A stretch of 64,000 nucleotides of DNA from assembly GCF_000482865.1 (NCBI RefSeq), contig NZ_AXWW01000010.1, forward strand, positions 1 through 64,000. Direction: 5' to 3'. Below the pieces are notes generated by a model. The model saw only the letters and a list, made by a program, of their open reading frames with translations, was not told the DNA's origin and searched no databases. Below, piece by piece: positions 1-17,718 of the stretch. A program made the translations under genes and the position numbers. This DNA is from Actinokineospora inagensis DSM 44258. Its GTDB lineage: Bacteria; Actinomycetota; Actinomycetes; Mycobacteriales; Pseudonocardiaceae. Every line of letters begins with the position of its first letter. Positions within the stretch are counted from its first letter, which is position 1.

Positions 1-153
1 TGGCGGGTAAGGCCACGTCTTTCCAGTGGCCCCGCCTTTTTGCCTTACCCAGGCTGCCGCTAGGGGCCCCAAACAAAACAACTTCACCACAACGGGCACC
101 CCCGCTTTAATCTGGCGCCCGAGGCCGGCGTCGCCGCCAGGCGACAAGGCCGA
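1..153 (-). repeat. Dispersed palindromic repeat, copy 1 (cut by window start)
   Basis: This is the reverse-oriented first copy of a repeat also found at 17480-17718 and 54204-54443. One 31-base terminal arm lies at 67-97 and the central stem at about 1-50; the other arm is beyond the window edge. Similarity to the 17.5 kb copy continues outward to about position 190. It lies just downstream of the GTPase gene that ends at 186. No transposase is nearby. Short open frames through it are conserved only because the DNA repeat is conserved. Confidence 0.85.
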
Positions 154-185: not shown

Positions 186-1970
186 TCACACCTCCCCAAG
201 AACACGCCCAAGCACCCCCGCCCGCTCCACCAGTCCCGCCGCAGCCCCCGCACCCCCTCCCCCCACACCAGCAACAGTCAACGCCTTCCGCCGAGCAACC
301 AACCCCTCATGCTGCTTCACCAAAGCCTCATCAACCGCCTGCTCAGCCACCGCCCGCCAAGTCAGCACCGCCCGATCCACCGCATGCGTCATATCAACCG
401 CCGCAGCCCCAAACGCATCCCGCAAAGCACTGGTCAAAGCCGCCCGAGTCCGCCCAGTAGCAGCCAACCGCCGCTTGTGCGTAAAGAACCCCACAGCCAA
501 CACCGACCCCAACGCCAGCGGCGCCAACGGCGACAACGCCGCAGCACCAAGCGCCGTGGCCAAATAGCTGACACTCCCCGCCATCATCACCGTCGGCAAC
601 CCCTCCGCAAAGAGATCAAACCGAGCCGCCACCCGAGTCGCGGTGAACGAAGGACCGTCAGGCCGGGCAAGAATCGCAAGATCTACCACCTCGGCATCCA
701 CCCCCGAAAGATACCCGGCAAACGCCGGAACAGCGATCTCCTCCACCGCCACCGTGATCTCCACCCAAGCAGCAGCCATCGACTGATCAAGGCTGTCCGG
801 CAACGCGTCCACATACCGCGACATCGCCCCCGGCGAGCTCAGCTCAGCGATCTCATCCTCATACACCCGACGAAACCGATCCAAAACAGCCTTCACCTGC
901 CGACCAGCATCACGAGCAAGAAGCTGCTGATCCAGCGCGTGCAGCTTCCGATCACGACGCCGACCGGCAAGCGCGGCCAACTCCCCGTCCACCTCAGCCA
1001 ACCGAGCAGCCACCGCGGCCTCATCCTCAGCCGCCACAGCCGCCGCATCCCCTTCAACCGAGGCCAGTTCACGCGCCGCAGCCGTCGCCAACGCCAGCAC
1101 ACCCCCCGCCCGAATCAGCTCACGCCGCTCCGCCCACATACCCACATGCCGCTCCAGCGCCGAAAACCCACTCCGTTCCCGTCGCGCGGCAGCACGCTCA
1201 CTCTCCCCCGCCGCAGCCAACACCTGAGCCGCCTCGGCAAGTTTCGCGCTGACCGGCAGCCACGGAGCACTCAGCAAACGCGCGGCAGAGCCATCAACCG
1301 ATCGGGCGAGCCGCTCACGGTTCTCAGTCAGCAACTCACGCCACCCCGCCGAGTCCTCCACCTTGGTCAGCACAAACGCCACCGTGGGCACCCGCGAAGC
1401 AGCCTCACGAAGAAAGTCCAACTCATGCCGCAGAATCGGCTGATCCTGCGCGGACACCGCGAACAACAACACATCCGCCCGACACAGCGCAGCGACCGTC
1501 GCATGCCGGTGCCCCACCGTCAGGCTGTCCACCCCGGGCGTGTCCACCAGCCGAATCCCCCGCAGCACAGGGCTGTTGACCGTGATGTCCACCCCCGTGA
1601 CACCACGACGCCGCGCCGGATCACCGAGAACCGAGGCGTACTCGGCAAGGCGAGCCGGATCGATGGTTTCGGACTCCTCACCCCGGCGAACCACAGCGGT
1701 AACCGAGTCCCCATAGGACAGTGTCACCTGCGTCTCACTGGCGATGTCCGCGTCGACCGGCAACAACCCGGGCACGCCCGCCAACGCGTTCACCAGTCTG
1801 CTCTTGCCGCGCTTCTGCGCCCCGGCGACAACCACCGTGGTGACCGACTCCGACCACCGGTTCGCCTGTTCAGCCAGGACCCCGGCCAGGTCTTCCCGCC
1901 CCAGCCGCACCGCGAGGCCGTGTGTGTCGTTGGCCAGCCGTAGGACCTGGCGGACGATGTCTTGGGTCAC
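186..1970 (-). CDS. Dynamin-like GTPase, second of a coupled pair (IniC/IniA-like)
   Basis: The 594-residue protein is a large dynamin-family GTPase. The P-loop GAQKRGKS is near residue 50, the G3 motif DTPGVDS follows, and the G4 motif is TKVE. A hydrophobic stretch near residues 445-480 could be the membrane-inserting paddle typical of bacterial dynamin-like proteins, and long Ala/Glu-rich helices surround it. Its GTG start at 1970 overlaps the stop of the upstream GTPase gene (GTGA), so translation is probably coupled. An upstream ATG would extend it by 12 residues but has no support. Known pairs of this type, such as mycobacterial IniA/IniC, act on the inner membrane under envelope stress. 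The precise role here is inferred. The family is clear; orthology to IniA or IniC is not settled. Confidence 0.85.
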   Translation of the reverse strand: MTQDIVRQVLRLANDTHGLAVRLGREDLAGVLAEQANRWSESVTTVVVAGAQKRGKSRLVNALAGVPGLLPVDADIASETQVTLSYGDSVTAVVRRGEESETIDPARLAEYASVLGDPARRRGVTGVDITVNSPVLRGIRLVDTPGVDSLTVGHRHATVAALCRADVLLFAVSAQDQPILRHELDFLREAASRVPTVAFVLTKVEDSAGWRELLTENRERLARSVDGSAARLLSAPWLPVSAKLAEAAQVLAAAGESERAAARRERSGFSALERHVGMWAERRELIRAGGVLALATAAARELASVEGDAAAVAAEDEAAVAARLAEVDGELAALAGRRRDRKLHALDQQLLARDAGRQVKAVLDRFRRVYEDEIAELSSPGAMSRYVDALPDSLDQSMAAAWVEITVAVEEIAVPAFAGYLSGVDAEVVDLAILARPDGPSFTATRVAARFDLFAEGLPTVMMAGSVSYLATALGAAALSPLAPLALGSVLAVGFFTHKRRLAATGRTRAALTSALRDAFGAAAVDMTHAVDRAVLTWRAVAEQAVDEALVKQHEGLVARRKALTVAGVGGGGAGAAAGLVERAGVLGRVLGEV

Positions 1971-3637
1971 GAACGGCTCCCGGCAAGACTTTCGAAGGCA
2001 GCGCACGCGGCTTCCAGCGCGCGTCGGACAGCGGGCGGCAGCGGCCGGTGCAGCAGGGCGCGGAACCTGGTCGCCGTGCCCAATTCATCCACATCGGACG
2101 TTCGGCCGTCCAGCAAACACCGCACCGCCCGGCGATCCGCCTCGGCGATGAGCGGTTCATCGCGCAAACGTTCCACCAGCGCGCGATCAAAGCTCACCGG
2201 AGCAGCCGCGTCGGCGATGTCCTCCAACGCGGCGAGCACGTCGTGCGCTCGGTGCCCCGCGACGGTGTGACCCGAGACGAGCGCTACCTCGCGCCAGGAC
2301 CGGGAAGCCTGACGAGCGGCCCGGACGACTTCCTCGGCCCTCGATCCCGGTGGGAGACCAAGTCGGGCAGCGGCCGTGTCCCCGCGAACCAGCCGGAACA
2401 ACTGTTCGGTCATGTCCTGGTCCAGCACCAGACCACCGGCGGCCACGGCGGCACACGCGGAAAGCACCCGCAGGCCACCGAGTTCGTCCGCGAGCGGCCG
2501 GTTCTCGTCCACAGTGGACATCAGCTTGCCGATCAGGGCGCCGTCCGGACCACCCGCGAACCGGCTGCCGAGACCACGCAGCCTGACCAGGGCGGCATGC
2601 GCCTTGAGCAGGTCCGCGTGCCGGGTGAACCGACCGATCACCGCCGCCAGACCGGGTTCGACGAACCCGGAACACCGCACGAGTTCCCGGTGGACCTCGT
2701 CAAGCCCGGCGTCGGGATGGTTCCGCAGATACTCGACCGCGACGGTGATCCCGTACCTGTGCAGCCGCTCCACCAAGCGCTCACCGGCCGGGTCCGCGCC
2801 GAACTCGGTCAGGTCCAGCAGCAGGTCTTCCACCACGACCGGCGACTTCGCGGCCAGCGAGCGCAGCTCGACCAGGTCCTCGGTGCTCAACAGCCGCGCC
2901 CGCCCGGTCTCGGCGAGCAGCCCGATGACCGGGGTCACGTCCAGCACGGTCGGACCGAGTTCCGCCGCCGCGCGAGCCGTCAACCGACGCGCGGTCGGCC
3001 ACGGGTCGGTGTCGTCGGCACGCCGGTCGACCTGGCTGAGCACGGCGGCCGTGTTGACCGCGGTGAGTCCGCACGCGGTGGCGAGCGACCTGAACTGGTC
3101 CAATGTGTCCGCGTCGAACCGCTGGACGTAGCGCAAGACATAAACCAGGGCCTGTGCGTGCTCGGCCGCGGCGTCGCCGAACAGGAGGGCGCGGGTCGTT
3201 TCCTCGGAGTCGGTGACGGTGTTGAGGCCCGGGGTGTCGATCACGGTGACGGTGCGCAGCCACGGGTCCGGCAGGCGCACCCGGATCCGGACGACGTCCC
3301 CAGCAGGCCCGCCGAGGTCACCGAGCGGCAGCGGGACCGACCGGGTGCGGCCCGCGGCGTCCTCGACCAGGGCGTGCGGGGTCGGGCCGTACTCGTACCA
3401 GGTCACGACCCGGGTGCACTCCCCCGCGTCGACCGCCGCCACCGGGCGACCGAGGATGGCGTTGATCAGGGTCGACTTGCCCGCGCTGACCGCTCCGGCC
3501 ACGGCGAGCTGCAGCGGTCGGTCGAGCCGGTCGGCGATGGCAGCGAGCTCCGCGCGCAGGCCGAGGTCGGTCGCGCGGTCGGCACCCGAGCGGCACAGGG
3601 CGCGCAGGACCGCCGCGGCCCGGTCGGGATGGGTCAC
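1967..3637 (-). CDS. Dynamin-like GTPase, first of a coupled pair (IniA/IniC-like)
   Basis: The 556-residue protein carries P-loop GAVSAGKST near residue 48, G3 motif DTPGLNT and a G4-type SQVD. The remainder is Ala/Leu/Arg-rich and predicted helical, as in the stalk of bacterial dynamin-like proteins. It shares only the fold and motifs with its downstream partner, so the two may work as a heteromeric pair. The GTG start at 3637 overlaps the stop of the His/Asp-rich gene by four bases, and its own stop overlaps the next start. The three genes therefore form one tightly coupled operon. Expected location is the cytoplasmic face of the membrane. Confidence 0.85.
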   Translation of the reverse strand: MTHPDRAAAVLRALCRSGADRATDLGLRAELAAIADRLDRPLQLAVAGAVSAGKSTLINAILGRPVAAVDAGECTRVVTWYEYGPTPHALVEDAAGRTRSVPLPLGDLGGPAGDVVRIRVRLPDPWLRTVTVIDTPGLNTVTDSEETTRALLFGDAAAEHAQALVYVLRYVQRFDADTLDQFRSLATACGLTAVNTAAVLSQVDRRADDTDPWPTARRLTARAAAELGPTVLDVTPVIGLLAETGRARLLSTEDLVELRSLAAKSPVVVEDLLLDLTEFGADPAGERLVERLHRYGITVAVEYLRNHPDAGLDEVHRELVRCSGFVEPGLAAVIGRFTRHADLLKAHAALVRLRGLGSRFAGGPDGALIGKLMSTVDENRPLADELGGLRVLSACAAVAAGGLVLDQDMTEQLFRLVRGDTAAARLGLPPGSRAEEVVRAARQASRSWREVALVSGHTVAGHRAHDVLAALEDIADAAAPVSFDRALVERLRDEPLIAEADRRAVRCLLDGRTSDVDELGTATRFRALLHRPLPPAVRRALEAACAAFESLAGSRS

Positions 3638-3978
3638 CAGTGCACTCCAGGATGGCCGTCGTCACCCTGCCCATCGGTGTGGTCGTACCAGTCGCTACCG
3701 GGATCACCGTGGTCGGCCATGTGGTGGTCATCAACGTGGTGGTCATCGGAGTGGTGATCGGCGTGGTCGTCAGCGTGGTGGTGGTCGAACAGGTCGTAGC
3801 CGAGGTCCTCGTGGGAGTGGGGCTCGGCGTGGTCGAGGTCGGGCAGCAGGTCGTGCTCGACGGGCTCGTGGCCGGTGAAGGTCACGTCGAGCATCGCCGC
3901 GCTGGTCTCCGGCGGCAGCGGCCGGACACTGTCGAGCAGCAGCGCACGCAGCGCGTCCTGGGAGAACTCCTCAGTCAC
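3634..3978 (-). CDS. Small His/Asp-rich protein heading the dynamin operon (IniB-like position)
   Basis: The 114-residue protein has an acidic N-terminal part (about residues 1-50, with a short ALRALLLDS helix) and a C-terminal half dominated by alternating His and Asp. The His/Asp tail suggests binding of divalent metal such as Zn, Ni or Cu; that is inference from composition. It starts with GTG at 3978, preceded by a good ribosome binding site (GGAGG about six bases upstream), and overlaps the first GTPase gene. Its place matches IniB in iniBAC-type operons, and the N-terminal segment could be a short IniB-type domain, but I cannot confirm homology by eye. The reverse strand also reads open because of the repetitive composition and is not considered coding. 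Confidence 0.7.
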   Translation of the reverse strand: MTEEFSQDALRALLLDSVRPLPPETSAAMLDVTFTGHEPVEHDLLPDLDHAEPHSHEDLGYDLFDHHHADDHADHHSDDHHVDDHHMADHGDPGSDWYDHTDGQGDDGHPGVHW

Positions 3979-4060
3979 CGATGACCTCCGGGCGATAACG
4001 CGACCCCCGGTCGCGGCGAATCACCGACTGACCCCGAGAGATCGTCGAGAGTGGAGCGCG
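3979..4060. promoter_or_regulatory. Divergent promoter region between the dynamin operon and the ECF sigma gene
   Basis: Only 82 bases separate the two divergent starts. A perfect 7-base palindrome, CGCGACC-ccc-GGTCGCG, lies at 3999-4015 near the centre and could be an operator shared by both directions. I do not see convincing -35/-10 boxes. Confidence 0.4.
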
Positions 4061-4597
4061 GTGACCCCTGGCCCCTTCCCGGACCCGGAGGCCGACCTCG
4101 TGCGGGCCGCCGCGGCCGGTGACCAGGCGGCGTTCCGCGTGCTCTGGGCGGACGCGGAGCGGCGGGCGTACGCGCTGTGCGTGCGGCTCACCGGCAACCA
4201 CGCCGACGCGGCGGACGCCCTGCAGGAGACCCAGGTCGCCGCGTGGCAGGGCCTGCCCCGGTTCACCGGGTCGTGCACGTTCGCGGTGTGGGTCTACGCG
4301 ATCGCCCGCAACGCCGCACTGACCGTGCTGCGCACCCGCAAGCGCCGCGCCGAGGTCGACCTGGACGGTGTCGCCGAGCCCGCCTCCGGCCCGTTCGCCG
4401 ACGCGGTCGCGACCACCATGGACGTCCGGTCGGCGCTGGCGACCCTGCCCGAGCGGCACCGGGAAGCCATCCTGCTGTGGGCGGGCGGCCTGACCTACGA
4501 CCAGGTCGCGTCCGTCATGGCGGCCCCGGTCAACTCGGTGCGCGTGTGGATCCACCGTGGACGCCGCGCACTGCGCGAACAGCTCGGGCACCAGTAG
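4061..4597 (+). CDS. ECF-type RNA polymerase sigma factor
   Basis: The 178-residue protein has sigma region 2 (about residues 15-70, including LTGNHADAADALQET) and region 4 (about 115-170, with LPERHREAI, LTYDQVA and the helix NSVRVWIHRGRRAL). These define a two-domain extracytoplasmic-function sigma factor. The GTG at 4061 is chosen because GGAG sits four bases upstream and region 2 begins soon after; the open frame extends further but into the neighbouring promoter. No anti-sigma gene is adjacent. It lies between the dynamin operon (divergent) and the GrpE-like operon (convergent, 10 bases apart), so it is a natural candidate to control both. That is inference. Confidence 0.88.
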   Translation: MTPGPFPDPEADLVRAAAAGDQAAFRVLWADAERRAYALCVRLTGNHADAADALQETQVAAWQGLPRFTGSCTFAVWVYAIARNAALTVLRTRKRRAEVDLDGVAEPASGPFADAVATTMDVRSALATLPERHREAILLWAGGLTYDQVASVMAAPVNSVRVWIHRGRRALREQLGHQ

Positions 4598-4607
4598 CTC
4601 GACCTCC

Positions 4608-5441
4608 TCAGCGGTACAGGACGACGTCCGGCAACCGCAGCACGGCGCCGCGGTCGAGGTACCCGGGTTTGACCGTCTCGGCCACCCGATCGCGCAGGTC
4701 CGGCCGCGGCGCGTCAACCGAGCCGACGGCGGTGTGCCGGTGCGGGTCGAACAGCTCGCCGTCCGCGCGGACCGGCGTGACCCCGACCGCCCCCAGCGCC
4801 CCGAGCAGGTGGTCGGCCAGGCCAGGTCCGCGTTCGGTGAGCTGGTCACGCAACCGGATGGCTGCCTGGACGAGGGCGGCGCGGTCGTGCGGCTGGTCGA
4901 GCAGCCGGGTCACCTGGGTGCGGATCGCCTCGCCCGGCGCGTTGGCCGCGACCACCCGCAGCGCGTCCGCCAGCACCACGCTGTCCTCGGGCCGCCGGTG
5001 TTCGGGCAGACCCAGCATCGGCGTGGGCGACAAGCCGTCGCCGAACCCGGCGACAGCGGGCGGGACCGACACCCGGCGGCGGGTGATCGCGAACCCGGCG
5101 CCCGCCAACACGAGCACGCCGAACCCGATCAACGCGGGCAGCAGCCAGGGCGACCCGCCCGATTCCGGTTCGCCGGGCTGGGGGGCGTTCGTGCCGTTAC
5201 CCGCCGTGGGCTGCTGGGTGCTGGGCTGCTGAGTACTGATCTGCTGGGTGCTGGGCTGAGCCGTGCTGGTCTGCGGCGCCGTGACAACGGGCGTCCCGGG
5301 CACCGCCGTTGTCGACGGCGGCGCGGCGGGCTGGGTCGGCTGCGGCTGGGCGTGCGCGGACGGCGCCGCAAGCACGAACAGGGCGGTCAGGACGCAGGCG
5401 ACGGCGGACAGGCGGGGGCGGGTCACGGGGGGATTGTTCAC
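4608..5441 (-). CDS. Membrane-anchored GrpE-like protein
   Basis: The 277-residue protein has a cleavable-looking signal (residues about 10-31, ending in AHA), then a Pro/Thr/Gln-rich low-complexity spacer with repeated STQQ units, and a transmembrane helix near residues 100-122 followed by RRR. The C-terminal domain has the layout of the GrpE beta-wing: GVTPVRADGELFDPHRHTAV, then a spacer, then VKPGYLDRGAVLRLPDVVLY. In GrpE this head contacts the DnaK nucleotide-binding domain. The order signal-spacer-TM-GrpE-like puts this head in the cytoplasm if the spacer is outside. The GTG start at 5441 overlaps the upstream stop (GTGA). No hsp70 gene lies in the window. The GrpE assignment rests on the C-terminal motif only. 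Confidence 0.72.
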   Translation of the reverse strand: MNNPPVTRPRLSAVACVLTALFVLAAPSAHAQPQPTQPAAPPSTTAVPGTPVVTAPQTSTAQPSTQQISTQQPSTQQPTAGNGTNAPQPGEPESGGSPWLLPALIGFGVLVLAGAGFAITRRRVSVPPAVAGFGDGLSPTPMLGLPEHRRPEDSVVLADALRVVAANAPGEAIRTQVTRLLDQPHDRAALVQAAIRLRDQLTERGPGLADHLLGALGAVGVTPVRADGELFDPHRHTAVGSVDAPRPDLRDRVAETVKPGYLDRGAVLRLPDVVLYR

Positions 5442-6088
5442 CCGTCGATGGCGTCTTGAGCGCGGGAGATGGCCTGGTCGGTCCCGATGTAGAGGTCGGT
5501 GGCCGTCTCGTGCGCCTCGGTGAGCGCCGAGCGCTGCGCGTTCTCGACGGTGATCTGGTGGTCGACCTGGTCGGCGTAGATCTGGCCCTCCAGGGCGGCG
5601 GTGTTGCGGGACACGGTGTCGATGTGCTGGTTGGCGGCCGCGACGTCGTCGGCGGACACCGAACCGGGGTGCAGCGCGTCCTGGTAGAGCGTGTGCGCGT
5701 CGGCGAGACCGCTGGTGGTCATGTCCATGACTGCCTGGGTGCCGCTGGGGATGTCGTACGGCGCCGGGTAGGCCGAGGAGATGTCGCTGTAGTCGGTGTG
5801 GGCCGCGTCGGGGTAGATGGCGGCGGTGCTCAGGTCGCCGTAGGTCGGGTCCGTGGAGTAGCCCGGGTCGGCGGAGTAGCCGGGGTCGATCGAGTGGTCC
5901 AGGGCGGCCGTGTGGTCGTAGGCCACGTCGGCGTACCCGTCGCCGCTGAGGTCGTACACGGTGACGTCGACCTGGCCGTCACCGTCCACATCGGACGCGA
6001 CGGCGTCCGCGACGTGGTCACCGTTGGTGTCGACCATGGCGGTGTCCACGGTTCCGTCGTTGTTGGCGTCGGCGACGTAGAGGTCCAT
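5438..6088 (-). CDS. Protein with Ca-binding-type DxNxDG repeats
   Basis: The 216-residue protein starts with four short acidic repeats in about 55 residues: DANNDGTVD, DTNGDHVAD, DVDGDGQVD and DLSGDGYAD. These resemble dockerin, VCBS or thrombospondin-3 calcium loops. A Tyr/Asp/Pro-rich middle follows, then an Ala/Gln-rich C-terminal helical segment. There is no signal peptide, so the protein may be cytoplasmic or exported by a non-Sec route. The ATG at 6088 has GGAAGGA just upstream. Its stop overlaps the GrpE-like gene start, so the two are co-translated. It resembles actinobacterial proteins of unknown function; the link to GrpE and dynamin genes is positional. Confidence 0.75.
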   Translation of the reverse strand: MDLYVADANNDGTVDTAMVDTNGDHVADAVASDVDGDGQVDVTVYDLSGDGYADVAYDHTAALDHSIDPGYSADPGYSTDPTYGDLSTAAIYPDAAHTDYSDISSAYPAPYDIPSGTQAVMDMTTSGLADAHTLYQDALHPGSVSADDVAAANQHIDTVSRNTAALEGQIYADQVDHQITVENAQRSALTEAHETATDLYIGTDQAISRAQDAIDG

Positions 6089-6121: not shown

Positions 6122-6149
6122 CAGACGGCGGTGGCGGCGGAAGAGTTAC
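6122..6149 (-). promoter_or_regulatory. Candidate ECF-type promoter for the Ca-repeat/GrpE-like operon
   Basis: On the minus strand GTAAC (6149-6145) is followed after about 17 bases by CGTCTG (6127-6122). This resembles the GGAAC-N16/17-CGTC pattern of many ECF sigma factors and would give a leader of roughly 30 bases before the ATG at 6088. The match is imperfect. Confidence 0.3.
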
Positions 6150-6196
6150 ACCGACTTCGAAACAAGCTCCCCGGGTGCGTTGACCTGGGAGAAGAG

Positions 6197-6346: not shown

Positions 6347-6357
<11 letters not shown>
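6272..6357 (-). terminator. Tandem hairpins ending the poly-amino-acid operon
   Basis: Two hairpins follow one another at the end of the aspartokinase gene. GGGGCTGGTG (6314-6323) pairs with CACCAGCCCC (6348-6357), overlapping the stop codon. CCGGGGGGC (6272-6280) pairs with GCCCCCCGG (6291-6299). No T-run follows, as is common for actinobacterial terminators. Confidence 0.55.
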
Positions 6358-7609
<1,252 letters not shown>

Positions 7610-7610
7610 G

Positions 7611-8987
7611 TCAGCCCCGTTCCCGGTGTGGCAGGGCCTCGATCGCCTCGACGAGGAGGTCGCAGGCGGTGTCCAGGACCTCGGCGGTGACGTTGAGCGG
7701 CGGCAGCAACCGGACCACGTTGTCGTCGCGGCCGCCCAGTTCGACGATCAGGCCCTGGCGGAGCACGGTGTCGCGCACGGCGGCGGCCAGCGCCCCGGCC
7801 GGGGTGCCGTCGGGGGCGTCGGCCAGCTCGATGCCCCACATCAGGCCGAGGCCGCGCACCTCGCGGACCAGCGGGTGCCCCTCGATCCGGGCGAGCCGCT
7901 CGACGACCTGCTCACCGCGGGCGACGACGTTGCCGAGCACGTTGTCCCGCCGGATGATCCGCACCGACTCGGCGCCCGCGGCGAAGGCGAGCTGGTTGCC
8001 GCGGAAGGTGCCGGTGTGCGAACCGGGGGCCCACACGTCCAGCCGCTCGTCGTAGAAGATCACCGCGACCGGGGAGCCGACGCCGCTGAGCGCCTTGGAG
8101 GCGATGACGACGTCCGGGACGATCCCGTACTGCTCGAAGGCGAACCAGGTGCCGGTGCGGCCGCAGCCGGTCTGCACCTCGTCGACGACCAGCGGGATGT
8201 CCAGCTCGGCGGTGACCGCGCGGACCCGGCGGACGAACTCCGGCCGGGCCGGGATCACGCCGCCCTCGCCCTGCACCAGCTCCATGATCACCGCGGCGGG
8301 CTTGGCGATGCCGCCGTTCGGGTCGCGCAGGGACCGCTCCAGGTAGGTGACGCAGTTGGTCTCGCAGGTGTCCGGGCGCAGGCCGAGCGGGCACCGAGCG
8401 CACGACGAGTACGGGAAGAAGTGCACGCCCGGCATGCCGTTGGCGATCGGCCGCTTCTGCGACACGAGACCGGTCAACGCCATCGCGGCGTGGCTGGCGC
8501 CGTGGAAACCGCCCTGGAAGGACACGATGTCGCCGCGACCGGTGGCGGTCTTGCACAGCTTGATGGCCGCGTCGACCGCGTTCGCCCCGGTCGGCCCGCA
8601 GAAGTGGATCTTCGTCCGGTCCCGCATGGCGGCCGGGAGCATGGACAACTGCGCCTCGGTGAACGCGTCCTTGGCCGGGGTCGGGAAGTCGAGGCCGTGG
8701 GTCAGCGACCCGAGCTGCTCGACCATGACCCGCACCAGCTCCGGGTGGTTGTGCCCGAGGGAGAGCACCCCCGCGCCCGCCAGGAAGTCGATGAACACGT
8801 TGCCGTCGACGTCCCGGACGAAGCTGCCCTCACCGCGCTCGATGGCGATCGGCAGGCCACGCGGGTAGCTGCGCGCGTTGGACTCGGTGCGCGCCTGCCG
8901 GGCCAGGTACTCCGCGGAGCGCGGGCCGGGCAACGGGGTCTCCACCCGCGGCCTGCGCAGCTCGGTCTCGGCGATCAGGTTGGTCAT
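7611..8987 (-). CDS. Diaminobutyrate-2-oxoglutarate aminotransferase (EctB/Dat family)
   Basis: The 458-residue PLP class-III aminotransferase should convert aspartate-4-semialdehyde plus an amino donor to L-2,4-diaminobutyrate. Visible features are [11 protein letters not shown] near residue 115, the cofactor aspartate in VVDEVQTG, and the Schiff-base lysine in IASKALSG. A Cys-containing insertion ([10 protein letters not shown], then CETNC) is typical of this subfamily. The ATG at 8987 overlaps the synthetase stop (ATGA), fixing the start; an upstream in-frame ATG lies inside the synthetase gene. Ectoine genes ectA and ectC are absent, so this is not an ectoine locus. Its neighbours suggest the diaminobutyrate is polymerised. 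Confidence 0.88.
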
Positions 8988-11900
8988 CGGGTCACTCCCG
9001 GGGTGTGCGCGGTTGCGGGGGTCGCGGAGGCGGCCGGGGCGGCGGTCTCCGTTGGCTCGGTCAGCTCGACGGCGGGGTTGCCGCACCACCGGGACCCCGG
9101 GGCGGTCTCGCTGCCCTTCATCAGGAACGCGTCCGCGTCGACCACGGTGTTGTCGGCCATCTTCACTCCATAGTGGACGAACGCGGCGACGCCGACCGCG
9201 GTACCGGCGCCGAGCGCGATCCGGTCGGACTTGAAGGTGCCGTCCTCCAGCGAGTGCCCCTGGACGACGGCGAAGGCGTTGAGCGCGGTGTCGGCGCCGA
9301 CGGTCACCAGGGACCGCTCCGGGATGCCCACGCCGTCATCGAACACCCGGCGGCCCATCCGCACCCCGAGCAGGCGCCACACGAGGACCTTGGCCGGGGT
9401 CCCGTTGAACAGGTTGATGTAGCGGCCGGAGCTGAGCTTCCAGTAGCGCTCGTGCCGCCAGAACGACCGGTCGTAGATGGAGCAGAACCGGGGCTTGAGC
9501 GGCCGGAACCCGTGCACCAGCCGTTCGGCGAGGGCACCGAACAGCAGCACGAACCCGGTGGTCGCCAGCAGACCCGCCGCCGTCGCCCAGGTGCCGTACC
9601 GGGGATAGAGACCCGCCGCGATCGTGTTGATCACCACGATGCCCCACAGGTCGACGCTGCGGGTGAGCAGGAACAGCAGGATGGTCACCAGGTTGAACCG
9701 GTTCTTGGCGGCCAGCCGCCTGCGGAACTCCGGTCCGGACTTGAGGTGGTCGAACCGGCTGTCCCGCTGGACCGACCGCGGGATCTCGAAGGCGGGCGAG
9801 CCGAGCAGACCGGTGTCACCGCGCGGCGGGCCGTCCACCGGCACCATCACCTTGGTCGCCAGCAACACGTTCTCGCCGGTGCGGCCGTCCGGCGGGTAGA
9901 GGATGTTGTTGCCGAGGAAGTTGCGCGGTCCGATCTCGGTGCGGCGCAACCGGAACGCGGTCGACGAGAACTCGGCGTTGGCCACCGAGAGGCCGTCGGA
10001 CACCATCGTGCCGGGGCCGACCCGGGTGAGCAGCGGCGAGTCGTGCTTGACCTCGATGCCGAAGTTCGAGCCGGTCTGGATGTAGCCACGCAGGTTGTAA
10101 CCCAACCAACGCAGGTAGTGCACGATGTAGGAGCTGTCGCCGAACAGAAACAGGTATGTGCGCATGTTCGTCAACCGGGAAGTCAGGCGCTGCATCGTGT
10201 ACTTGACGCCGTAGAGCGGATACACCTTGTCCGGCTTGAGGAACAGGCTCAAGAACCTCGGAATCGCCGACACCAGAAGCAGACCGACGAGCACCGCGGC
10301 GACGAACACCGCGCCCGCTCCGGCCAAGTCGACCAGGTAGAAGCGCGGGTCGGCGGCGTTGACCGGGACCAGGTTCAGGAACAGCTCCCACACCAGGTCA
10401 CCGACCAGCATCACGACCGGCAACGTCCAGCAGGTGAGGAACACCAACTGGGCCAGGCTGTAGAACACCCGACGCACCCGACCTGCCCGCGCCTCGACGT
10501 CCGGTCGGTAGTCCACTGTGGTCGGTCGAGCGGGTGAGCCGTGCCAGCTCTCCCCCGCCGGGACCGCCTCACCCGCGGACAGGTGCGAGGCGTGCGCGAG
10601 TTGCGCGTCGTCGCCCAGGGTCGTGTTGATGTCCAGGACCGCGGTCTCGCCGACGTAGGCCCCGGCGCCGATGGTGACCCGGCCGATGGTGATCTTCCCG
10701 GCCTCGGCGCGGTAGCCGAGCAGATAGGTGTCCTTGCGGACGACCGCGCCCGCGCCGATGGTGAGCAGGTCCGTGCACACGGGCACGTTCTGGGTCAGCA
10801 CCAGCGCGCCCTTCCCGACCTTCGCACCCATTGCCCGCAGGTACAGGGAATACAACGGGGAACCGGTGAACATCCGGATCGGGTTGAACCTGGTGACCGA
10901 GCGGACGACCCAGAACCTGAGGTAGGTCAACCCCCAGATCCGGAACGTCCCCGGTTTCCACCTGCCGACCAGCAGCCATTTCAGCGCCACCGGCACTACG
11001 CAGGCGACCAGGAACGCGGCGCCGCTGAACCCGGCGGCCCGCAGGTACATGCTCGGCGCGCTCGTCCCGGCCATCACCCAATCAAGGCCGATGTCGAGGA
11101 GCAGACCGGACAGGTAGGTGTAGGCGAGGAAGAACAGGGCCTGCGCGGCGCCGCACAACACGTAACGCCACCCCTTGATCGGGTCGACCGCGGCGGCCAC
11201 CCTGGCGGCGGTCCGCGGCTTGCCGGGCAGGGCATCGGCAAGATCGCGGACGGACGGGTGTTGGTACACCTGCTGCATGGTCACAGTGGCGAGGTCCGCG
11301 CGCGCACGGACCCTGGCGCAGAACCGGGAGATCAACAGCGAGTCGACCGCGAGGTCTTTGAAGAAGTGACCAACGGCGGACACCCGCTCGACCCCGAGCA
11401 CGCCGGCCAATTCCTCGGCCAACGCCGCCTCAAGCGGCGACCCCGGCGCGACGTAGTCCTTTGTGGATGCTTGACGCCGACCGCTCGGCACGGGCAGGTT
11501 CTTCCGGTCGGCCTTGTTGCTGGTGGTCAACGGAATGGCGTCGAGCCGCTCCAGGTAGGCGGGAACCATGTACGCCGGTAAGCGCTCACGCAGGTGTTCG
11601 CGGAGGTCGTCCTCGTCCACCCGCCCCGAGGTCGAGTAGTAGCCCACCAACTCCACCGTGTCCGGGTTCGGGCGGTGGGTGTCCACAACGGCCGCCGCCA
11701 CCCCGGGGGCGCTGAGCAGGACCGACTCGATCTCGGTCAGCTCGATCCGGTAGCCGCGGATCTTCACCTGGGTGTCGATCCGGCCCAGGTACTGGATGTG
11801 GCCGTCGTCGTCGACCCGGCCCAGGTCGCCGGTCCGGTAGATCCGGCCGGACGGGTTGTTCCCGATCCCGACGAAATCGTCGATGAACGCCTTCTCGGTC

Positions 11901-13039
11901 AGGTCGTCCCGGTTCAGGTAACCCCGGGCCAGTCCGATACCTGCGATCCCGATCTCCCCGGTCGCGCCGCGCGGCAGGACGACCTGGTGCTCGGGGTCGA
12001 GGATCACCACCGAGTAGGTCGGCAGCGGGACGCCGATGGTCACCGGGCGGTCCGGGGCCAACGGGGTCCACGTCGCCGTCACGGTCGCCTCGGTCGGGCC
12101 GTAGACGTTCAGGAACCGGCGATCCGCGTGGTGCCAACGGGCCACCAGGTCCTGCGGGCAAGCCTCGCCGGACACCAGCAGGAACCGCAGCCCCGGCAGG
12201 TCGTCCGGCAGGGTGGCGAGCAGCGTGGGCACGCAACACAACGCGGTGATGTCGCGCTCCCGCAGGAACTCGCCCAACTCGTGGCCGACGAGCGCCCCGC
12301 CTGCCTGCCGGGGCACCAGCGTCGCCCCCACCGCCCACGGCACCCACGTCTCCTCGACGGAGAAGTCGAAGGCGATCGTCATGCCCTGGTAGACCCGGTC
12401 GTCGGGGCGCAACCCGTACACCTCGGCCGCGACCCGCACGAAGTTGCAGATGCTCGCGTGCTCCACCGCGACACCCTTCGGGCGACCGGTGCTGCCGGAC
12501 GTGTAGACGATGTAGCACAGGTCGTCGACCGGCCCACCGCACTCGTCGTCGGCCAACGGCGCGCTGTCCACCGCGTCGATCGCCGCCGCCGCCGAATCCA
12601 CGCCGAGCACGGCCGTCTCGCTGTCGGCCAGCACCGGCACCAGGTGCTCCTGGGTGAGCACCAACCGCACGTCGGCGTCGCCGACGATGTAGCCGACCCG
12701 GTCCGGCGGGAACCCCGGGTCCAGCGGCACGTACGCCGCGTTGACCTTCAACACCGCCAACATCGCGATGTACGCCAGCCACGCCTGGTCGAACAGCAGG
12801 CCGACCCGGTCACCCGCGCCGACCCCGCGACCGAGCAGGTAGCGCGCCAACCGGTTCGCCCGGTCGTCGACGTCGGCGTAGCTGAGCACGAACTCGCCGG
12901 TGTCGACGGCCGGGTGATCCGACCGCCGGAACAGGTGCTGCAGGCGCTCCCCAGCGCGCCACCGCACCCCGTGTGCGAAGCCCACCCCCATCAGGACCCC
13001 GGTGTCGTCGACGAGCGCCTCGGACTCCGGTGCTGCCAT
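8984..13039 (-). CDS. Pls/PosA-family membrane NRPS, probable poly-diaminobutyrate synthetase
   Basis: The 1351-residue single-module synthetase has an adenylation domain (about 30-520) with core motifs [28 protein letters not shown] and [10 protein letters not shown] carrier domain follows (about 530-600), with the phosphopantetheine serine in [10 protein letters not shown]. From about residue 615 pairs of transmembrane helices alternate with three soluble left-handed beta-helix-like domains (for example [14 protein letters not shown] and [13 protein letters not shown]). There is no condensation or thioesterase domain. This is the layout of epsilon-poly-L-lysine synthetase, where the C-terminal tandem domains link monomers by isopeptide bonds. 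By eye the specificity residues are about D-F-E-C-L-S-V-V; the acidic E at the third position suits a basic side chain. A ribosome binding site GAAGGG precedes the ATG. Confidence 0.9.
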
Positions 13040-17479: not shown

Positions 17480-17718
17480 TCGGCCTGGTCGCCTTCGGCG
17501 ACGCCGGCGCTCGGGCGCCAGATAAAGCGGGGGTGCCCGTTGTGGTGAAGTTGTTTTGTTTGGGGCCCCTAGCGGCAGCCTGGGTAAGGCAAAAAGGCGG
17601 GGCCACTGGAAAGCGTGGCCTTACCCGCCGGCCGGCTTAGACCACCGCTCCCCCCAAACAAAACAACTCCACCACAACGGGCAGTTGGTATCGGCGGGTT
17701 TCGAGGCGCGCGGTGCGG
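17480..17718 (+). repeat. Dispersed palindromic repeat, copy 2
   Basis: The core element is 148 bases, 17535-17682, bounded by 31-base inverted arms (17535-17565 and 17652-17682) matching at 30 of 31 positions. A second internal stem surrounds 17582-17625 (GGTAAGG with CCTTACC and GGCCAC with GTGGCC). Similarity to the 54.2 kb copy spans 239 bases. It separates the SDR pair from hpaE in what looks like one original operon. Confidence 0.9.

Follow-up and report, generated by a model that had tools for sequence, protein, structure and literature searches.

Conserved linkage of a dynamin-like GTPase pair with Hsp70-type and GrpE-like genes and an ECF sigma factor in Actinokineospora inagensis and other actinobacteria

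In the soil actinobacterium Actinokineospora inagensis, two genes for dynamin-like GTPases belong to a set of seven genes that, as compared by sequence, are held together across three families: the dynamin pair, an Hsp70-like gene, a GrpE-like gene, an ECF sigma factor gene and two genes for small or repeat-containing acidic proteins. Conservation of the set makes a joint dynamin-Hsp70 module well supported. With moderate confidence it is read here as a membrane-remodelling module, in which an Hsp70-type ATPase and a membrane-anchored GrpE-like exchange domain would be dedicated to a dynamin pair of the IniA/IniC class and the ECF sigma factor would be the local switch. Six of the genes lie at one end of the window (the whole stretch of 64,000 nucleotides that was analysed); the seventh lies on another contig.

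Layout of the locus

All six open reading frames that a sequence-only reading had picked out (window 186-6088) were recovered (Table 1). The genes dynA and dynB overlap by 4 bp and form one overlapping minus-strand operon with the gene for a 114-residue His/Asp-rich protein. The sigma gene is divergent from this operon, with 82 bp between them, and the genes for the GrpE-like and Asp-repeat proteins make up a second minus-strand operon that is convergent on the sigma gene (10 bp from the sigma stop to the GrpE-like stop).

Table 1. Features of the dynamin locus at the start of the window (strand: +, forward; -, reverse;., none assigned).
Feature	Position	Strand	Basis
156-bp repeat element, right part (31-bp perfect terminal inverted repeats)	1..99	.	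99-mer, inverted repeat, copies
dynA, IniA-class dynamin-like GTPase, 594 aa	186..1970	-	Dynamin_N above Pfam cut-off (51 bits), IniA match, clade
dynB, partner dynamin-like GTPase, 556 aa	1967..3637	-	Dynamin_N above Pfam cut-off (51 bits), PDB matches, clade
His/Asp-rich protein, 114 aa, opens dynamin operon	3634..3978	-	conserved N-terminal segment and acidic tail
candidate sigma-gene promoter, GATAAC-N17-CGAAT	3994..4021	+	same pattern in four Pseudonocardiaceae
ECF sigma factor, 178 aa, GTG start	4061..4597	+	Sigma70_r2 and Sigma70_r4_2 above cut-off
GrpE-like protein, 272 aa (277 with GTG start at 5441)	4608..5426	-	Pfam, AlphaFold2, Foldseek, TM scan
Asp-rich protein, 216 aa, first gene of grpE operon	5438..6088	-	sequence and relatives
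ECF-type promoter of Asp-repeat/grpE operon, TGTAAC-N17-CGTCT	6123..6150	-	motif kept in sigma-type loci

The His/Asp-rich protein (20% D, 17% H) matched no family in Pfam or NCBIfam, and similar small proteins sit between sigma and dynB in related loci. Several families share an N-terminal LRxLLFDxVxP..MFxxTF segment before the His/Asp-rich tail of this protein and its relatives. To judge by sequence, the small acidic protein could be a regulator of the divergent sigma factor or an IniB-like accessory. The Asp-rich protein carries the repeat D-x-x-x-D-(G/H) four times and has a helical segment at its C-terminal end that is conserved. It had been read as a calcium-type repeat protein; the D-x-[DN]-x-D-G pattern is the sole basis for that label, and no Pfam family matched above cut-off (FG-GAP and EF-hand matches were sub-threshold only).

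The module is followed in the window by a minus-strand operon (6347-13039) for an aspartokinase, a class III aminotransferase and a 1351-residue AMP-binding/carrier/membrane synthetase, resembling poly-amino-acid synthesis of the poly-lysine or poly-diaminobutyrate type. An aminotransferase and an aspartokinase also adjoin the module in A. enzanensis (locus L032, 5356-7984).

An Hsp70-like gene across the contig break

Because the window starts at the end of its contig (C7), just past dynA, a neighbouring hsp70 gene was invisible within it. Such a gene, for which the sequence-only reading had proposed a search, does exist: it is convergent to the dynamin operon and lies past the contig break at window position 1. 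Two congeners, A. terrae and A. enzanensis (genomes G011 and G012), are close relatives; both have an Hsp70-like gene convergent to dynA, and in A. inagensis contig C46 has its orthologue (85% identical) as final gene. The end of C46 and the start of C7 (1-99) are the same exact 99 bases, and in the joined contigs the hsp70 stop is 398 bp from the dynA stop. These 99 bases are part of a 156-bp repeat that the genome contains at least 40 times at 96-100% identity, for which reason a join on the overlap alone was doubted; it was kept because the exact 99-mer is found only at C7:1-99 and at the C46 end, and because synteny in A. terrae and A. enzanensis agrees. The hsp70-dynA junction is well supported, though inferred across the break rather than sequenced. 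The 156-bp element, which sits between dynA and the hsp70-like gene with the contig break inside it, was located at window 1-99 and 17533-17687 and at C46:57525-57680; it resembles a MITE or another mobile repeat of that sort and could be why the assembly breaks here.

The ATPase domain of the Hsp70-like protein scored 135.9 bits in Pfam, the protein aligned with DnaK over 346 residues (Z 41.8), and the phosphate and adenosine motifs are kept in 22 Hsp70-like homologues. No substrate-binding domain (SBD-beta and helical lid) was recognised in the A. inagensis protein, whose Pfam match stops at position 369 of the 599-position profile; among the 22 homologues no match to another C-terminal Pfam family was obtained. 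Residues 376-762 were predicted to be all strands, in about seven sets of four, with no helix of 4 or more residues after residue 362 and no helical lid. A search for the C-terminal fold by sequence gave no PDB match, and a fold search with the whole model was filled by ATPase-domain matches; from the predicted strands and the WD40 repeats of a paralogue, the C-terminus is described as putatively propeller-like. Dynamin-linked Hsp70s of several Micromonosporaceae loci carry a C-terminal transmembrane segment, which may be another sign of work at the membrane.

No J-domain gene was found beside any dynamin locus of the genome; its canonical dnaK and grpE and a dnaJ are on contig C57. The Hsp70-like proteins of loci L033, L107, L110, L119, L125, L130 and L135 have a strongly hydrophobic C-terminal helix, as if tail-anchored.

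The GrpE-like protein

The GrpE-like protein matched the Pfam GrpE family at 30.3 bits (cut-off 25.8) and PDB GrpE sequences at E 1e-6 to 3e-3, and the GrpE beta-wing signature (FDPxxHxA...GYxxxGxxLRxPxV) is present. An AlphaFold2 model of its C-terminal domain (128 residues) reached a pLDDT of 97.3, and the top Foldseek matches of the domain were the GrpE structures 3a6m, 4ani and 1dkg. In a transmembrane scan the order of parts was a signal peptide, a Pro/Thr/Gln-rich outer segment, one transmembrane segment (residues 96-114) and the GrpE domain (about 145-272); the protein is predicted to be membrane-anchored with its GrpE domain in the cytoplasm, and GrpE-like proteins with a transmembrane segment were found in many other loci. 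The long N-terminal dimerisation coiled coil is absent; in the model of the 128-residue domain the four helices are only 12-18 residues long, and the domain is preceded by the Pro/Thr/Gln-rich stretch and the transmembrane segment.

With the DnaK/GrpE machine the module has in common the GrpE beta-wing signature and fold and the Hsp70 ATPase domain. It differs in that its GrpE-like domain appears membrane-anchored, with short helices instead of the long coiled coil, and in that the C-terminus of its Hsp70, predicted all-beta and propeller-like, replaces the substrate-binding domain. The GrpE-like protein had been taken for an Hsp70 co-chaperone. The hsp70 partner gene is indeed present and travels with it, but the partner is non-canonical and without a recognisable substrate-binding domain, for which reason the protein is better read, on its sequence, as a nucleotide-exchange-type partner of the Hsp70-type ATPase.

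Conservation in related loci

Eighty loci around relatives of dynA were fetched, genes were called with a home-made caller and typed with HMMER, and in the closest group, 21 sigma-type loci from three families, the genes were recounted by tblastn. Hsp70 was found in 21/21 of these loci, the GrpE-like gene in 20/21 and sigma in 18/21; one more sigma orthologue, in the L062 genome (C3:37943), falls a little outside the fetched locus to judge by its coordinates, and Pseudonocardia oceani has no linked GrpE gene. The usual order is Asp-repeat, GrpE-like, reverse sigma, small acidic, dynamin, dynamin, reverse hsp70. Sigma-type loci occur in Actinokineospora, Pseudonocardia, Dactylosporangium, Actinoplanes, Streptosporangium, Planobispora, Planomonospora, Planotetraspora and Acrocarpospora, among others. 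Within the genus the locus type is patchy (three of 16 congeners), and no other locus of comparable score was found among 101 genomes sampled from the order.

In the trees the sigma-type loci formed a clade at 100% in each dynamin half (dynA and dynB), their Hsp70s a clade at 100/100, and the GrpE domain one group at 91/98. In related genomes the GrpE-like, sigma and Hsp70 genes travel with the dynamin genes, with congruent clades, so the outcome that would have refuted the sequence-only reading did not occur. The idea of one module that combines dynamins with an Hsp70 co-chaperone stands, by this conservation, as far as the joint module goes; the co-chaperone wording and the identity with iniBAC do not.

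The sigma factor and candidate promoters

Sigma orthologues 51-63% identical to that of the window occupy the same place in related loci outside the genus. No anti-sigma family matched in the locus (Pfam, NCBIfam), in agreement with the earlier description of an ECF sigma factor that has no anti-sigma gene; the His/Asp-rich protein is a candidate for that part.

An ECF-type motif, [TC]G[ACT]AAC followed after about 19 bases by TC, was found 57-69 nt before the start codon of the Asp-repeat/grpE operon in 17/18 sigma-type loci. It was present before 4/307 other genes of the same loci and 14/982 genes of other loci, which served as controls (about 1.4%), and before 0/63 dynamin operons without sigma; since the same loci served to derive the motif, the counts measure its conservation and are not an independent test. 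The form TGTAACT-N15-17-CRTCT occurs twice in the 7.28 Mb genome, once here and once inside a short ORF, where it was rejected as a promoter. Before the sigma gene itself, G[AC]TAAC-N17-CGAA is present in three Actinokineospora and one Pseudonocardia, and this pattern was not seen in families other than Pseudonocardiaceae.

In nearly all loci the dynamin and hsp70 genes are not preceded by the pattern TAAC-N17-CG, and a motif shared by all four transcription units was rejected, as exact-dyad counts gave relatedness signals only. Because the motif stands before the Asp-repeat/grpE operon but is missing from the upstream regions of most dynamin and hsp70 genes, control of the dynamins by the sigma factor is no more than a possibility. 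In locus L073 the sigma gene is lost and the promoter kept, heading a co-directional acidic-grpE-dynamin-dynamin run; in L062 the promoter heads an acidic-acidic-dynamin-dynamin run; and in L082 the sigma gene is lost and the motif is also absent.

The dynamins and other dynamin systems

The best PDB match of dynA was IniA (6j72, E 4e-19), and dynB matched the Campylobacter dynamin pair 5owv and IniA. IniA cuts membranes in vitro, and its fission activity is weak when it acts alone (PMC6715688). The locus had been called iniBAC-like, which holds for the dynamins only. As in iniBAC with IniR, an IniA/IniC-class dynamin pair lies in one operon behind a small low-complexity gene. In contrast to iniBAC, the window locus is without iniB (neither small acidic protein of the window matched an NCBIfam family, IniB_NTERM included) and without iniR, the regulator there being an ECF sigma factor, and it has a gene for a membrane GrpE-like protein. 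The missing parts are found elsewhere in the same genome: a locus on contig C15 encodes an IniB_NTERM protein (60 bits, cut-off 40), a dynamin, an Hsp70-like protein and an IniR-like regulator (357 bits, under the equivalog cut-off of 750). By sequence, the window locus is a branch parallel to iniBAC, with the ECF sigma factor in the regulator's place.

Streptomyces DynA/DynB are likewise paired actinobacterial dynamins, and the Streptomyces pairs L077 and L080 also have an Hsp70-like gene nearby; they differ in forming a separate clade and in that no sigma or GrpE-like gene was found adjoining them. In Nostoc, a dynamin beside BDLP1 carries a DnaJ-like domain (PMC6104087), so that there too a bacterial dynamin pair is tied to part of the Hsp70 machine; the J-domain is fused to the dynamin, whereas the window locus has separate GrpE-like and Hsp70-like genes.

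Dynamins and Hsp70/GrpE-type genes beyond the sigma-type loci

Of 35 dynamin loci sampled from the 101 genomes of the order, a GrpE-like gene is present in 27, an Hsp70-like gene in 16 and at least one of the two in 32. An Hsp70-like gene lies within 6 kb in 42/80 fetched loci; the density of such genes (about 8 in 7.28 Mb) would lead one to expect about 2%. A phylum-wide GrpE search returned mostly canonical GrpE and was left out of the linkage counts.

The A. inagensis genome has three further dynamin loci, on contigs C9, C10 and C15, and three of its six non-DnaK Hsp70-like genes adjoin dynamin loci. A PF00350 match on C5 was not counted as a dynamin, since its sequence looks like an HflX-type GTPase. 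On C9 (L029, 8385-13725) the order is dynamin, GrpE-like, dynamin and DUF6802/acidic protein, adjoining PEP carboxykinase. The unlinked Hsp70-like proteins of the genome group among the dynamin-linked ones in the tree and might therefore act in trans for dynamin loci of which C9 is an example. Loci of the dynamin-grpE-dynamin type, like that of C9, were seen in many relatives. On C10 (L030, 9335-15431) one co-directional run encodes a dynamin, a 105-residue GrpE-like protein, a second dynamin and a fusion of an Hsp70 ATPase domain with WD40 repeats.

Discussion

In the membrane-remodelling module favoured here, disturbance of the membrane or wall would release the sigma factor and lead to transcription of at least the Asp-repeat/grpE operon. 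The GrpE-like domain, at the inner face of the membrane, would recruit the Hsp70-type ATPase and speed its ADP/ATP exchange, and the ATPase, with a propeller-like domain where a peptide-binding domain would be, would engage the dynamin oligomer and power its assembly or its disassembly, comparable to the way in which Hsc70 removes clathrin coats. The likeness to clathrin uncoating by Hsc70/auxilin (described in general terms in PMC4436892) is one of working only, in that an Hsp70 motor acts on a protein that coats membranes; the comparison implies no homology to clathrin or auxilin, and no J-protein was found in the module. We infer the action of Hsp70 on the dynamins; an envelope-stress role is suggested by analogy, the pointers being the ECF-type promoter and the parallel with IniA only. 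Counting against the model are the Hsp70 without a recognisable substrate-binding domain, the lack of a J-domain gene beside the dynamin loci of the genome, the lack of the promoter motif before the dynamin operon or hsp70 in most loci, the promoter kept without sigma in L073 and the lack of a linked GrpE gene in P. oceani.

The Hsp70-type ATPase and the membrane GrpE-like protein might instead serve chiefly to control the ECF sigma factor, taking the part of an anti-sigma factor and acting as DnaK does on sigma-32, with the dynamins as mere output genes. This would fit the lack of an anti-sigma gene in the locus, a predicted membrane-spanning GrpE-like protein whose outer segment could sense, and sigma and grpE genes that are convergent neighbours in nearly all sigma-type loci. 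GrpE-like and/or Hsp70-like genes, however, accompany dynamin pairs in most loci without sigma, so the sigma factor cannot be their main client, and this account is considered unlikely.

A role in cell division, with the dynamins stabilising septa and Hsp70/GrpE aiding divisome turnover, draws on Streptomyces DynA/DynB, which stabilise Z-rings (PMC8748795), and on the Streptomyces and Phytohabitans pairs with a nearby Hsp70-like gene, which belong to the same two subunit families but to another, related clade. The locus is absent from most congeners, unlike a division protein, and contains a stress-type sigma factor, which makes such a role quite unlikely.

The patchy distribution among congeners would also suit a dynamin-based membrane-surveillance or abortive system against phages, kin of LeoABC-type dynamins, and the PADLOC models LeoA and LeoBC matched the dynamins at 31-55 bits; such matches are common to many dynamins. 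The seven proteins gave no other anti-phage defence match in PADLOC, the locus is inherited with congruent trees across families and the GrpE/Hsp70 linkage extends to dynamin pairs generally; we rate anti-phage defence as very unlikely. That the genes are adjacent without acting together is highly improbable, for although the proposed interaction of Hsp70, GrpE-like protein and dynamins rests on gene linkage, order and orientation are kept in several families, the Hsp70 linkage far exceeds the expected 2% and the trees mirror each other.

The open-licence literature yielded no description of a dynamin-GrpE-ECF sigma module; subscription journals were outside the scope, and an earlier mention there is possible. 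Prior work on dynamins with Hsp70 machinery, in the same literature, amounts to two passing mentions (PMC5760070, PMC6104087), the first being of a dnaK-like gene that adjoins iniR in M. smegmatis.

The membrane-remodelling reading of the window locus may be one case of a broader rule. Tentatively, and as a possibility somewhat short of probable, actinobacterial dynamin pairs in general would have an Hsp70-type ATPase and a GrpE-type exchange factor of their own to work them, as a bacterial counterpart of Hsp70-driven coat remodelling; the window locus would be the branch that also acquired a private ECF sigma factor and a membrane-anchored exchange domain. It is largely an open question how the dynamins of bacteria reach membranes, assemble there and come off again. 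The Hsp70/GrpE genes beside nearly every sampled dynamin pair of the order are candidates for the missing partners and can be tested directly. They could bear on the drug-tolerance locus iniBAC, where the dnaK-like neighbour was mentioned in passing (PMC5760070). If action of Hsp70 on dynamins were shown, the broader rule behind the window locus would be well worth attention. Dynamins and Hsp70 machinery are found together again and again in actinobacteria, a hint that dynamin coats in bacteria may be driven by an Hsp70-type motor.
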